Assembly: GCF_000003815.2 (NCBI RefSeq)
Contig: NC_049995.1
Span: 7,067,576 to 7,131,575 of the forward strand
From: Branchiostoma floridae
Lineage: Eukaryota > Chordata > Leptocardii > Amphioxiformes > Branchiostomatidae
Length of the DNA stretch: 64,000 nt
Direction of reading: 5' to 3'
Made by a program: the position numbers and the translations under genes. Below, in pieces: positions 23,967-30,446 of the stretch; position 1 is the first letter of the stretch; every line of letters starts with the position of its first letter. Below the pieces are notes generated by a model, which was given only the letters and a program-made list of their open reading frames with translations, was not told the origin of the DNA and ran no database searches.

Positions 23967-24729
23967 TTATTTCCTTCTGGGTTTTCTCACGGCTTTGTAC
24001 GGTTTCTTGCTCGGCGCCAGTTCTCTCTCCATCTGTACATGTTTCTTGGGTGATACCAGAAGTGTGTTCTCTCGTCTCGGTCTTCCCGGCTTCTTGTGCG
24101 CGCTCCTGTCTGCAGTCATCGGTGCACCCGCTGGGGGGAGCCCCAGCTTCTGTAATACAGAGAAAATAGAGAACGAAATAAATCAGATGTATAACGAGAT
24201 CTTAATCAAGGATTTTGCGAAGTAAAAACGTATTTTGTTTTACCCTCCGCCCATGAGCGGTACCGTATTGATTTGTGACGTCATGGGTCGGACATCTTGT
24301 TTCTATACCACCTTGTCAAAAAAACCTATGTAAATTTGGATGTTTATTTGTATATCAAGGGCAGTGTTTTCGTCTGCTATTTGAGCTTTGGACGCTAGGG
24401 GGCGGTAACCAGAAAGGGTCACTGAATTGCAGAGACAACGTTACGAAGTCAGTGACGTCACGGTGATGCACTAATGCACTTGAATTGATTAGCCTAAAGC
24501 GGCACAAGAAAACAGCAAACACATTTCATTTTCCTGACCTCGACCTCTTCCGTTGTGACGAAGATGGGAAGGACGTCGTTGGACGGACAACACTTCTGTT
24601 TGCAACAGCAAAAAGCGCCCCCTATGAACAGCGCCAGGGTTAGTGCACACAGAGTTGGTGGTAGGAGGGTCCACATGGGGTCTACTGGAGCATCTTCAGT
24701 CTCCAGATCCACGCTTCCATCAGAAAGAC
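23967..24729 (-). CDS. Transmembrane exon and basic terminal exon of the Tie-like receptor
   Basis: Exon 24539-24729 gives an acidic stalk ([11 protein letters not shown]), the membrane helix ([15 protein letters not shown]) and a juxtamembrane CCCKQKCC, likely palmitoylated. Exon 23967-24149, in phase 0, gives a tail with [17 protein letters not shown] and [13 protein letters not shown] before TAA. It has one tyrosine, in PYKA, and no YxxL/V immunotyrosine or kinase motif. The other two frames of this exon would not match the preceding phase. Confidence 0.72.
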
Positions 24730-27700: not shown

Positions 27701-30446
27701 TATTTATTGGTTTGGCTGTTCAGTACGCACAGACAGGGGGGGGGGGGGTGCCCAACTAGCCTGTGGCTATTACAAAGGGCTAGACTTTTTCACAAAAACA
27801 GAGACTATACAAATGGAATTGTAGTTGTGTTTTTCTCACCTATCTCACAGTTATCTCCCATGAATCCAGGCGCGCACGTGCACTCCCCGGTGTTGTGGTC
27901 ACACTGACCTCCGTTGTAGCAGGCTGGGCAGTCCCCCTCACAATTCTGCCCCCACTTGTTCTTCGGACATCCTGAAAATTAAGTGCAGTTCTCCTGTTCT
28001 AAAAATTTATCATCATGTTTACCTTCACAGAAGGTTTAGCATTTGCTTGCAGATGTTGCATTTAATGTGTGCGCTTATTATATTCTAATTCTCATAATAT
28101 TCTCATGTCAAATCAAAAATACTTAATGATGCTGTTTCGCTCACCTCTCACGATAAGACGGACGATCCCCTGGTTCCCCTCCCTCCGAGTTGTCTCGGAA
28201 GTAAAACACTCATAGATGCCCGCATCTTCTGCAACCACGTTGTCAAATGTCTCCGCAATCTCAATCTGTGTTAAGAAACATGCAAACTTGTTACTTGTAC
28301 TAGCCTGAGATCCAGCATCAGTATGACCCGCCCCCATACGTTATGTTGACATAACGCCTGACCTAAAATCGCCGAATATACTACCGAGTGAGGGTAGCGA
28401 ACACAAGACGTTCCTTTCCATAAACTCATGTTTATTCTGGTAAGACTGTAATACTCATTCAAGTTAAATAGCCAATGGGAAGGGTGGATTGTGATTGGTC
28501 CAAACAGCCTGGCTGCATGACAATGAGATATAACAATCCGCCGTCACATAACTGTTAAGCTGGTGCATGTGTTACAGTAAATGGCGGTTGTACCGGCTTT
28601 AGTAGAAAAAAGAACATTACTTACCCGTTGAGCTACATTGCCCCTGTTGAGTTTGATGACGATGAGGCTGCCGTCATGCTGCCAGCGGATGTTGACCTGT
28701 GACCTCCCTACCTCTGCCTCTGACAGCGTCATGTGTAATCTTACCGAATCTCCGATGCTGGCTGTCACTGTGAACTGCGTCGAGAGGAACACCGCTGTGT
28801 CGAAAATAGGTCAGTAGTATTACAATCAATTTAACTTCAATTGAGTACAGTAAGGAGAACATACATACATGTATGAGCGTAGGGTTCGCCTCGCTCACTC
28901 GATAATATATTTTGTAGCCAAAGAAACAGACCAGTCTTTATATGCCATGAGAAAAATGTGAAACATTAACGTTAACTACTTCACCACAGCGAATGACAGC
29001 CATTTGTAATCAGAAAGCCGAAAATCATTTTGAGTATACACATGTTAAAATAACTTCTTTGGATATCGATAAGCACAAACCATTTACCCGCCAGGCTGAT
29101 CGCCCAGAGTTCCGATGCACAGCTGTACATCAGTCACTGCATATACAAAATGTATGATACTGGTAAGCTAGTACAAAGTGAAACTTGTTGCTTACCCGAG
29201 GATAAGGTCTTGGCGGTAGAGACTGACACCTCCTGACCACTGCTGTCTGTCCCGCTACAGGTGAACACACCTGCCGCTCCACCGTCAGGTGTGAAGGTAA
29301 GCATACCACCTGGCCACGCCTCTGGACCTGCAAACAGTCGTAAAATATATTTTATTCTCTTTCAAACTCTGATATAGAATTGGTCCTTGTAGTATTGTAG
29401 TTCCATAAAAATCACTAGGTGGCCCAATCTAATATCATTTCGGCAGAAGCCGTTTAGAGCAAGTGCACATTGTGAGAGAAGGTATCATTTACACAATATA
29501 GATGTTGCAGGTTACTTTTGTTCTGTGTAAAATCGCACAATATTGTTTTTTTTTCGTTCGTTTTCATTTCATTTACGTTCCTTTCCTTTCGTTTAAGCCC
29601 CTTAATTTTAGTAGTCTGTTTTCTTTTTTCTTTACATCAGATTTTATGTAAGTTTGGTACAGTACCTATGGTACTTGTGACCGCTGAATCTGGGATTACC
29701 CATGACCCTTCAGCCGTGAACTTGACGGAGTCCACGGTGTTGGTGACGCATTTCAGGAATGTCTGCGCTCCTGAGGGGTCCACTAGGGGGCGCTCGTTCA
29801 CAAGGGTGACGTCAGCTACTGCATCTGTGATACGGGTATAATCATGTATGTAACAGTATAGATAGTAATATTTCATAATGGATACGCTAAGTACTCTAAG
29901 ATTACCAGAGTAAATAAAATACTCGAAAAAAGTAAGTATTACTGACGAAAGTTAGTGGGTACTATCTGAAACGTCCGACCGTTTCTAAAATCATATCCAG
30001 CTGCTTTTGGGCATATCTTATAATTTGGTGGATCCCAACTTTCATCGACGTAAATACACGATGAATTTAGAGAGACCTTTGTAGTGTTCAAAACAATGTT
30101 GAGAACGCTGTTTTTAATGTGGTTTTGGAAATAAGGCACATAGTAGTGTACAAGGATAACTTTTATGAAAATACATACCGTCGCCAAGCAACCAAACAAC
30201 GCGTAAATACTGGCTGGATTCCAAGCAGATATCATGACCAAAATACTGAAATACTTCTAATACTTGCTCAAAATTTTCTGGGTAATGTTGACTAATTGTA
30301 ATGAAATCTAAGAACATGTTCTTAAGAAATTTAGTCCTGCAGAAGTAAAATTATAAAAAAGGAGAATTTAACTCACCAACGTTGTTCACCAACTCTGCCA
30401 ATACTGCACAAATAAAAATACTAGTAGCTAGTCCTGGATTCACCAT
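23967..30446 (-). CDS. Kinase-less Tie-like receptor (Ig-Ig-EGFx3-EGF-TM-basic tail)
   Basis: Eleven exons join in phase: 30377-30446, 29666-29824, 29196-29327, 28625-28794, 28145-28265, 27840-27971, 27244-27396, 26566-26700, 24927-25067, 24539-24729 and 23967-24149. They total 1587 nt, or 528 residues. The start [19 protein letters not shown] is a signal peptide. Two Ig-like domains (24-120 and 121-217) are followed by three Tie-type EGF repeats (218-357), one ordinary EGF (358-404), a membrane segment (about 423-447) and a 60-residue basic tail ending in TAA. Vertebrate Tie1/Tie2 share this head: the second Ig lacks its first cysteine, RLIVRGC leads into EGF1, and EGF2 carries C-x-PDP-x-GCSC. 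Tie receptors then have a third Ig, three FNIII domains and a tyrosine kinase, all absent here. It is probably a cell-surface ligand binder or decoy. The domain calls are firm; the T10 donor (GTCAGG) is the weakest splice site. Confidence 0.85.
24927..25067 (-). CDS. Extra canonical EGF exon of the Tie-like receptor
   Basis: A phase 1-1 exon encoding a six-cysteine EGF ([28 protein letters not shown]) followed by a Thr/Ser/Pro stalk. It stands where Tie receptors have Ig3 and FNIII domains. The exon type differs from the three preceding Tie EGFs, suggesting acquisition by exon shuffling. Confidence 0.85.
25118..25656. mobile_element. Inverted-repeat DNA element in an intron of the Tie-like gene
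   Basis: The left end TAGGCCACAGCAAGTAAATT and the right end AATTTACTTGTTGTGGCCTA are inverted. The homology runs on through TTTATGGATGACATC, about 38 bp per arm. The interior has no ORF of note. Confidence 0.8.
26340..26504 (-). mobile_element. tRNA-derived SINE copy 2 (best preserved)
   Basis: On the minus strand the head reads GGGACCGCGTGGCACGATCG with an A box TGGCACGATCGGG (26493-26481) and a perfect-looking B box GGTTCAAATCC (26449-26439). The body follows with CTTGGGGAAGGCACTTTACA and CAGGTGTAAATGAGTACATAGC. It lies between the fourth EGF exon and EGF3 of the Tie-like gene. Confidence 0.85.
26566..27971 (-). CDS. Three Tie-type EGF exons of the Tie-like receptor
   Basis: Each exon is phase 1-1 and holds one eight-cysteine, laminin-like EGF. 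Exon 27840-27971 reads [31 protein letters not shown]. Exon 27244-27396 reads [11 protein letters not shown], then [12 protein letters not shown]. Exon 26566-26700 reads [11 protein letters not shown], then [12 protein letters not shown]. The symmetrical phase lets whole repeats be skipped without frame loss. Confidence 0.9.
28145..29824 (-). CDS. Ig-like domain exons of the Tie-like receptor
   Basis: Exons 29666-29824 and 29196-29327 encode the first Ig: [15 protein letters not shown], cysteine in FLKCVTN, and AGVFTCSGT with the partner cysteine. Exons 28625-28794 and 28145-28265 encode the second: [10 protein letters not shown] has no cysteine at the B strand, IRWQHDGS gives the tryptophan, and [10 protein letters not shown] the F strand. 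Each domain is split by an intron. The missing B-strand cysteine matches Tie1, where the second Ig also lacks the disulfide. Confidence 0.85.

Follow-up and report, generated by a model that had tools for sequence, protein, structure and literature searches.

Tie receptors control the blood vessels of vertebrates, and we know of no settled account of their origin. The protein described here resembles TIE2/TEK and TIE1 in the succession of a predicted signal peptide, two Ig-like domains and three EGF repeats, the repeats being of the same type and in the same order, but it is without the third Ig domain, the FN3 repeats and the kinase, and it has in addition an EGF of the Notch type and a tail that is short and basic. 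FGFRL1, which has no kinase and whose ectodomain has Ig domains only, would be similar in principle, being a receptor ectodomain on a membrane anchor without a kinase, although the FGFRL1 ectodomain is unrelated to the head of the present protein, and the heads related to that head also adjoin phosphatase exons. FGFRL1 is thought to act on the FGF receptors, and Tie1 on Tie2, as an inert partner or decoy. An FGFRL1 gene is present in amphioxus (PMC2754479). In vertebrates, VE-PTP is a separate phosphatase that regulates Tie2, with antibodies that displace it from Tie2 activating the receptor (PMC6017057).

An eleven-exon gene model without an enzyme

In the window, i.e., the whole stretch of 64,000 nucleotides of Branchiostoma floridae DNA that was analysed, the locus contains an intact gene model of 11 exons, which predicts a single-pass membrane protein that has a Tie-type head outside and no enzyme inside. 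The model runs on the minus strand from 30446 to 23967, and its outer coordinates are those of an earlier sequence-only reading. Its exons are as follows.

30377..30446, minus strand: exon 1, start codon and hydrophobic, signal-peptide-like stretch; ends in phase 1 with a GTGAGT donor
29666..29824, minus strand: exon 2, first half of Ig1; phase 1-1, AG/GT borders
29196..29327, minus strand: exon 3, second half of Ig1; phase 1-1; the TIE2 alignment begins here
28625..28794, minus strand: exon 4, first half of Ig2; phase 1-0; Ig matches under the Pfam cut-off
28145..28265, minus strand: exon 5, second half of Ig2, with the RLIVR end directly before EGF1; phase 0-1
27840..27971, minus strand: exon 6, Tie-type EGF1; 23/44 residues identical to TIE2 EGF1, cysteines 8/8 aligned
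27244..27396, minus strand: exon 7, Tie-type EGF2 with the VFCxPDPxGCSCATG signature; 26/51 identical to TIE2 EGF2, cysteines 8/8
26566..26700, minus strand: exon 8, Tie-type EGF3; 17/45 identical to TIE2 EGF3, cysteines 7/8
24927..25067, minus strand: exon 9, extra EGF of the Notch/factor VII type; PF00008 above its cut-off; PDB matches Notch1, DLL1 and factor VII
24539..24729, minus strand: exon 10, stalk, transmembrane helix (residues 426-447, approximately), then the beginning of the tail, with CCCKQKCC at 445; hydropathy peak of 1.94 at residue 429
23967..24149, minus strand: exon 11, basic 60-residue tail and stop codon; without kinase or phosphatase

As the sequence-only reading had claimed, the eleven exons follow each other in unbroken phase: all ten introns are GT-AG, eight of them are in phase 1, and joining the exons in these phases leaves one open frame of 1587 coding nt (528 aa). 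Every one of 20,000 single-base shuffles of this spliced frame contained a stop. The claimed order of domains, including the membrane helix, was reproduced through the collinear match with TIE2, PF00008 and the hydropathy peak (a signal-peptide-like start predicted from hydropathy alone, two Ig domains, three Tie-type EGFs, one EGF of the Notch/factor VII type, membrane helix and tail), and the stop after 60 residues of the tail exon was found again in exon 11. EGF PF00008 was the only Pfam family above its cut-off in this protein; the Ig matches were under theirs, and no FN3 was detected by Pfam. About 80 residues would lie in the cytoplasm, with no enzyme among them, and the 81-residue tail contains a single tyrosine, Y519, around which no ITIM-like context was seen by eye. 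That the gene is an unexpressed relic copy is extremely improbable in view of its 528 open codons, its ten canonical introns and the alignment of 23 of the 24 cysteines of EGF1-3 with those of TIE2.

The proposal that a Tie-type head stands here on a membrane protein without a kinase was also borne out, with no kinase exon within 30.5 kb downstream: tblastn over the window and L040 (30.5 kb past the stop) gave no kinase beyond chance matches at E>=3. A genome search with the kinase N-lobe found none on C17, where the window lies, near 7.09 Mb among 149 matches (150 of 157 candidates scored). No phosphatase exons were found in the window, and the genome phosphatase search gave no C17 row among the matches listed of 153 (150 of 185 candidates scored); the tandem PTP domains that mark the Tie-headed receptor phosphatases of the C7 and C15 loci are absent from this gene, which has a receptor head on a membrane anchor without a kinase, as does FGFRL1. 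A truncated or mis-assembled Tie gene, whose kinase exons are missing, lie far downstream or fall into an assembly gap, would be in keeping with some other heads, which have kinase exons 6-31 kb downstream, but it is very unlikely here: no kinase was found within those 30.5 kb or nearby on C17 among the matches listed, the frame closes in a proper last exon behind the membrane helix, read-through of exon 10 also gives a short tail (ORF 24494-24784), and the enzyme-less layout is repeated at C8:17.52M. This second head is accompanied by a membrane-helix-like stretch and a short tail that ends in a stop and in which no Pfam domain was found, and it looks like a second enzyme-less version (the C8 region examined contains 1770 N).

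Likeness to the TIE2 ectodomain

The closest solved structure to the window protein was the TIE2 ectodomain (phmmer against the PDB; 4k0v, E=1e-47; 2gy5, E=2.8e-46), and residues 95-362 were collinear with TIE2 75-325. The Tie-type character predicted for the EGF triplet is strongly supported: besides the aligned cysteines, its joint score against TIE2 was 387, whereas 500 cysteine-preserving shuffles averaged 111 and reached 180 at most. The three repeats stand in the order of the Tie family, but the third Ig domain and the three FN3 domains are absent, exon 8 being followed by exons for the Notch-type EGF and for the membrane segment, and so is the tyrosine kinase domain; linkage to IFT74, a further feature of the family, belongs to C15:12.84-12.86M and not to the window locus on C17. 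In the PDB, the extra EGF (residues 363-399) found matches in Notch1, Delta-like 1 and factor VII.

For the Ig pair, a Tie-type character is only weakly suggested. The pair is collinear with TIE2 in the whole-protein alignment but was not retrieved when searched alone: TIE2 was absent among the seven matches at E<=1 of the single-sequence search and among the best 60 of 1834 matches of an eight-sequence Ig2 profile. Sequence proof that the pair is Ig1-Ig2 of TIE thus failed; what speaks for its Tie identity is collinearity together with the conserved RLIVR-C junction at the border to EGF1. RLIVRGC was invariant in 8/8 lancelet heads aligned (in the seven other heads the final C, the first residue of EGF1, was appended by hand), and its TIE2 counterpart is RLIVRRC. 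An ordinary EGF/Ig adhesion or scavenger-type protein of the MEGF, SCARF or Notch-ligand sort, in which the likeness to Tie would be that of a common laminin-type EGF run, would fit an Ig pair that does not retrieve TIE2, a Notch-like extra EGF and the related EGFs of very many lancelet genes (a C11 multi-EGF gene, intronless Ig-EGF kinases). We consider it unlikely, because no other PDB match comes near TIE2 (scavenger receptor class F1 reached E=3.6e-5 against 1e-47), because EGF2 has the unusual PDP-GCSCATG stretch of TIE2, and because Ig exons adjoin EGF1 at many other loci.

Tie-type heads across the lancelet genome

The view of the window gene as a single exception had to be given up. 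A related Ig exon adjoins a Tie-type EGF1 exon at at least 15 other loci (4/15, namely C17:16.035M, C15:7.938M, C8:17.521M and C14:1.110M, rest on Ig matches with E>0.1), and downstream of the heads of this multi-locus family lie kinase exons, tandem phosphatase exons or neither. Relatives of exon 2 were found at C14:10.681M and C8:17.521M. Among 28 head loci (27 hand-picked EGF1 matches in short open frames, taken from the matches listed of a search with 168 matches and 150 of 710 candidates scored, and one weak Ig match, C15:5877966, E=3.36; C15:7.934, 7.939 and 7.950M as well as C15:6.295 and 6.305M are possibly one gene each), phosphatase exons were linked to six (5/27 without C15:5877966; of the phosphatase rows, at least C400:1576 was left out) and kinase exons to seven, or about five genes (several kinase rows with E<=0.01 were left out, e.g., C183, C200, C15:5859863, C15:8380057, C15:8414670 and C15:8319430), linkage being judged by exon proximity on the same strand, at most 40 kb downstream. 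Random placement would give about 0.2 for each enzyme (the sizes of C5 and C9 were guessed, and slightly too small), and 15 of the 28 had neither kinase nor phosphatase exons within linkage range. The C9 head-kinase case is without an Ig match, and RET is the top scorer for its kinase exon. A reading taken from the TIE2-kinase search (134 of 629 candidates scored), that no head goes with a kinase, was overturned by the lancelet N-lobe search.

The Ig2 domains of a kinase-linked and a phosphatase-linked head were identical at 70/87 residues, so near-alike heads seem to bear opposite tails; Ig2 of the window protein was 33-40% identical to that of the seven other lancelet heads aligned. With so many head loci beside a kinase, a phosphatase or neither, the Tie-type head appears to be common to enzyme-bearing and enzyme-less genes. 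Among the matches listed from the open-access literature, lancelet Tie heads or Tie-headed phosphatases were not found described. The receptor tyrosine phosphatase at C7:16.01-16.05M (203 N in the region examined) has the same Ig-Ig-EGF1-EGF2-EGF3 head, with EGF1 69% and EGF2 52% identical to those of the window protein, and after this head come further EGFs, an Ig-like piece and FN3 pieces, a stretch that resembles a membrane helix and the phosphatase exons. Two of its FN3 pieces were above the Pfam fn3 cut-off and the Ig piece was below. These Ig3-FN3 pieces were rejected as TIE2-like, their best PDB match being a contactin-3 fusion chain (E=0.0016), with TIE2 absent among the matches listed.

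As for the role of the window protein, we would give about even chances to the likeliest reading, a ligand-sharing, membrane-bound decoy or inert co-receptor among its Tie-headed relatives, which gains from the heads lying upstream of kinase and phosphatase exons well above random placement. The head may have spread by phase-1 exon shuffling and duplication, and its versions may have ligands that are identical or related; the window protein would bind such a ligand, or the heads of its relatives, while not signalling itself, and would dampen or tune the kinase-tailed and phosphatase-tailed relatives. The sharing of ligands is a guess, since the Ig pair alone misses TIE2 and vertebrate angiopoietin binding runs through the Ig region. 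Given the extra EGF, a role in adhesion, the matrix or the Notch pathway is possible.

The Tie orthologue beside IFT74

A genome search for a separate kinase-bearing Tie, which the sequence-only reading had proposed, turned up an apparently headless one in addition to the other heads upstream of kinase exons: the closest Tie orthologue found lies on C15, adjoining IFT74 (C15:12.84-12.86M). For human 9p21.2, a gene list within PMC5264603 gives PLAA, IFT74, LRRC19 and TEK. The three kinase exons read in the C15 gene are identical to TIE2 at 74/131 residues (56%), to TIE1 at 74/131 and to FGFR1 at 56/131, and its body consists of Ig, FN3 repeats, a membrane helix and the kinase. By the Pfam cut-offs, the Ig piece is accepted and so is one FN3 piece of the two; the other, which comes first, falls short (E=0.0018) but has TIE2 among its PDB matches. 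The Ig-FN3 part matched 8a1f (5e-25), 2v5y (5e-20) and TEK (3e-17), its best PDB match being the Ig-FN3 unit of RPTP kappa/mu, which by their domain layout are MAM-Ig-FN3 phosphatases without a Tie-type EGF head.

This IFT74-linked Tie appears to lack the head. None was found in the approximately 3 kb that separate the first Ig exon from the stop of IFT74 (12857474), tblastn of the window protein over 20.4 kb at the locus gave a best E=1.1, and a cysteine-pattern scan of the gap was empty (2/3 EGFs were detected in the positive control). The gap contains two signal-peptide-like starts, one of which has a GTAAGA donor in phase 1, compatible with the Ig exon. All this, together with the presence of Ig, FN3, a membrane helix and the closest kinase in the C15 gene, would fit the head as an ancestral stand-alone module that was joined in vertebrates to a headless Ig-FN3-kinase like the C15 gene; an ancestral head before kinase fusion had been among the suggestions of the sequence-only reading, and it gains weight because the orthologue appears headless. 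However, loss of the head in lancelets fits the same data equally well, sea urchin SpTie1/2 is reported as a Tie1/Tie2 orthologue in the title of a 2010 paper by Stevens, and the C7 phosphatase locus has Ig-Ig-EGF-Ig-FN3 in a row, so that head and body seem already joined in one lancelet gene. An ancestral module is therefore conceivable but doubtful. 

The decoy or co-receptor reading could be part of a wider picture, which we put forward only tentatively, of paired lancelet receptors: related Tie-type heads on a kinase, a tandem phosphatase or nothing would answer one ligand class with opposite or null output, and the vertebrate Tie would be a late union with an Ig-FN3-kinase body that is still apart in lancelets. 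The head family may also be an invertebrate case of opposed enzymes under one recognition head. Since B. floridae has Tie-type heads both on anchors without an enzyme and next to kinase or phosphatase exons, and an apparently headless IFT74-linked Tie kinase, the assembly of Tie becomes directly testable through outgroup genomes.

Related EGFs occur in very many lancelet genes, including the C11 multi-EGF gene and intronless Ig-EGF kinases, and an expansion of tyrosine kinases in amphioxus was reportedly the subject, by its title, of a 2008 paper by D'Aniello. A kinase pair on C16 came top of the TIE2-kinase search (among the scored 134/629) yet was rejected as the lancelet Tie: in the PDB it scored 254 bits with FGFR1, 252 bits with TIE2 and 301 bits with the EGFR-labelled 9p9u, it groups with the intronless kinase L018 in trees (support of 78 in one), and its ectodomain differs. 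The intronless receptor kinases L013 and L018 have Ig and, after it, three EGFs of laminin type that belong to the same class as those of the window protein; their own features are a long single open frame, an extra N-terminal region and their own kinase, for which the nearest PDB chains were the EGFR-labelled 9p9u, then ABL1, FAK and FGFR3.

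The window gene model and its likeness to TIE2

The window gene was modelled on the minus strand from 30446 to 23967 as 11 exons in unbroken phase, separated by 10 GT-AG introns and giving a reading frame of 528 codons plus stop, which confirmed the anatomy described by the sequence-only reading, i.e., a Tie-type head, a membrane helix and an enzyme-less tail. The predicted protein begins with a signal-peptide-like stretch, which is followed by two Ig-like domains, three Tie-type EGFs and one Notch/factor-VII-type EGF; behind these come a membrane helix and a tail that is short and basic. 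Two exons encode each Ig-like domain and one exon each EGF; phase 1 was found in eight of the ten introns, and all four EGF exons are 1-1, the phase arrangement in which exon shuffling usually occurs. Retention of the last intron would give a short tail as well (ORF 24494-24784).

Other features of the window

31921-33018 (+): long open frame, with several frames open, consisting of GGDVAKGxSG-type units in tandem and lying immediately upstream of the window gene; by eye a minisatellite
38188-39399 (+): 403 aa open frame with 13 C2H2 zinc fingers
44118-45801 (+): voltage-gated potassium-channel-like gene with long open frames that a run of N breaks near 45000; BTB_2 (PF02214) matched at 5e-20, and the pore sequence TVGYGD was recognised by eye
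about 7501-8801 (-): exons that by eye are of Ig type and belong to a neighbouring gene; a single piece matched PF00047 weakly, below the cut-off

In a phmmer search of the PDB, TIE2 was the top match of the window protein (4k0v, E=1e-47; residues 95-362 against TIE2 75-325), followed by the Notch and Delta families, whose matches (1e-12 at best) fell on the fourth EGF; scavenger receptor F1 scored 3.6e-5. The three EGFs are identical to those of TIE2 at 23/44, 26/51 and 17/45 positions, and 23 of the 24 cysteines align. Their joint score was 387; the highest among 500 cysteine-preserving shuffles was 180. The Ig pair searched alone did not retrieve TIE2, which was also absent from the best 60 of 1834 matches to an eight-sequence Ig2 profile. 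Because Ig-only searches miss TIE2, the pair is called Tie-like by its order and the RLIVR-C junction, not by an independent search. The window protein is collinear with the TIE2 ectodomain at 75-325, but adds a Notch/factor-VII-type EGF and ends in a short basic tail without a kinase.

The absence of a kinase, as claimed earlier, held over a wider region: tblastn with TIE2 kinase and lancelet kinase queries gave nothing above chance level (best E 2.3) in the window and L040, which together reach 30.5 kb past the gene's stop. The window occupies 7067576-7131575 of contig C17, and among the 149 matches of a search for Tie N-lobe exons in the 513 Mb assembly (431 contigs; 150 of 157 candidates scored), none fell on C17 around 7.09 Mb. 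A phosphatase query had no match in the window, and no place on C17 was among the phosphatase matches listed for the genome (153 matches; 150 of 185 candidates scored).

A candidate Tie kinase beside IFT74

A separate kinase-bearing Tie, which the sequence-only reading had proposed to look for, has a candidate on contig C15.

C15:12.840-12.855M (-): predicted lancelet Tie with an Ig region spread over two exons, FN3 and kinase exons, and a membrane helix

The three kinase exons that were read are identical to TIE2 and to TIE1 at 74 of 131 positions each, compared with 56 of 131 for FGFR1, and the kinase grouped with TIE1/TIE2 in an 11-sequence tree (ultrafast bootstraps 96 and 94), with provisional sequences standing for TIE1, FGFR1, VEGFR2 and RET. 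Its Ig-FN3 part matched RPTP kappa (5e-25) and mu (5e-20) in the PDB better than TEK (3e-17). An IFT74 gene lies directly upstream on the same strand (PDB IFT74, E=1e-10), and a published list for human 9p21.2 gives the genes PLAA, IFT74, LRRC19, TEK (PMC5264603). The region C15:12840900-12861300 (L044, L049 and L050) holds the probable lancelet Tie orthologue, beside the human TEK neighbour IFT74.

The gap between the IFT74 stop and the first Ig exon is 3 kb and free of N. Over 20.4 kb around this gene, the best tblastn match of the window protein had E=1.1, and a scan of the gap for the EGF cysteine pattern was empty (in the window, as a control, it recovered two of the three EGFs). The gap holds two signal-peptide-like starts, of which MCPWTASLLLLNIVYFT has a phase 1 GTAAGA donor fitting the Ig exon. 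Since no head was found there, the lancelet Tie, as predicted from DNA, apparently lacks the Ig-Ig-EGF3 head, the part that the window gene carries.

Related heads, nearby enzyme exons and a possible role

An EGF triplet query gave at least 168 genome matches (150 of 710 candidates scored), many of them in receptor kinases that lack introns and measure about 950 aa (L018 is an example). The Ig query had 26 matches, with four in the window gene, 16 beside an EGF1 exon at 15 loci and six not beside one. As judged from its gene model, the window gene is a Tie-type receptor head without a kinase and a member of a lancelet head family of which no description was found in the open-access literature searched. 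The interpretation of the sequence-only reading was partly supported: a kinase-less Tie relative was borne out, its standing as a sole exception was not, since related heads stand at 15 other loci. The flanks were read directly at C7, C8, C14 and C11.

Loci of related heads

C7:16.01-16.05M (L021-L026; span 16.007-16.052M): Ig-Ig-Tie EGFs-more EGFs-Ig-FN3s-membrane helix-two phosphatase domains, layout partly by eye; PF00102 matches at 16.046-16.052M; the Pfam cut-off is passed by two FN3 pieces but not by the Ig piece
C8:17.52M: head followed by additional EGFs, then a membrane-helix-like stretch with a short tail that stops at 17528225; kinase or phosphatase not found up to 17554000 (region includes 1770 N)
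C14:10.68M: head and many Notch-type EGFs; no enzyme found over 38 kb of downstream sequence
C11:5.77M: multi-EGF gene, without a match to the Ig query
C15:5.88-5.91M (head at 5.878M based on a weak Ig match), 7.76-7.78M, 10.31-10.33M and 10.76-10.78M: Tie-type heads with tandem phosphatase exons 6-15 kb downstream, same strand

Some loci of related heads have kinase exons, some have phosphatase exons and others have neither of the two. Within 40 kb downstream on the same strand, the 28 head loci of a hand-compiled list had phosphatase exons in six cases, kinase exons in seven (about five genes) and neither in 15, where linkage means exon proximity on the DNA; 5000 random placements gave means of 0.20 and 0.21 linked loci, never above 3. 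The kinase exons at C15:1.93M, C5:2.74M, C15:10.29M and C15:7.94M are of the receptor-type N-lobe and about equally near TIE and FGFR; the joined C5 piece exceeded the Pfam tyrosine-kinase cut-off, and the two head-linked kinases tested in the tree formed their own group outside TIE1/TIE2. The Ig2 domains of the kinase-linked head at C15:1.93M and the phosphatase-linked head at C15:7.78M are identical at 70 of 87 positions.

The C7 locus suggests that the head and an Ig-FN3 part occurred together in a phosphatase. One possibility is that a complete Tie was present in the ancestor and that its head was lost in lancelets; the other is that the head and the kinase body were originally separate and were joined in vertebrates or an earlier ancestor. 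Sea urchin SpTie1/2 has reportedly been published as an orthologue.

The window protein would consist of a recognition head and an anchor without an enzyme, and because of this composition its simplest role may be that of a decoy or inert partner for enzyme-bearing relatives. The nearest precedent for such an enzyme-less receptor is FGFRL1, which is not known to carry a kinase and serves as a decoy. This FGF-receptor-like gene is also found in amphioxus (PMC2754479). The regulation of Tie2 by VE-PTP (PMC6017057) is the vertebrate precedent for a phosphatase set against a Tie kinase.

On contig C16 (L041), two receptor kinases at 16.614M (-) and 16.619M (+) are paired head-to-head with a run of N between them, and the ectodomain of one reads by eye as EGF-Ig-Ig. 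Their C-terminal tails resemble those of TIE, FGFR and RET.
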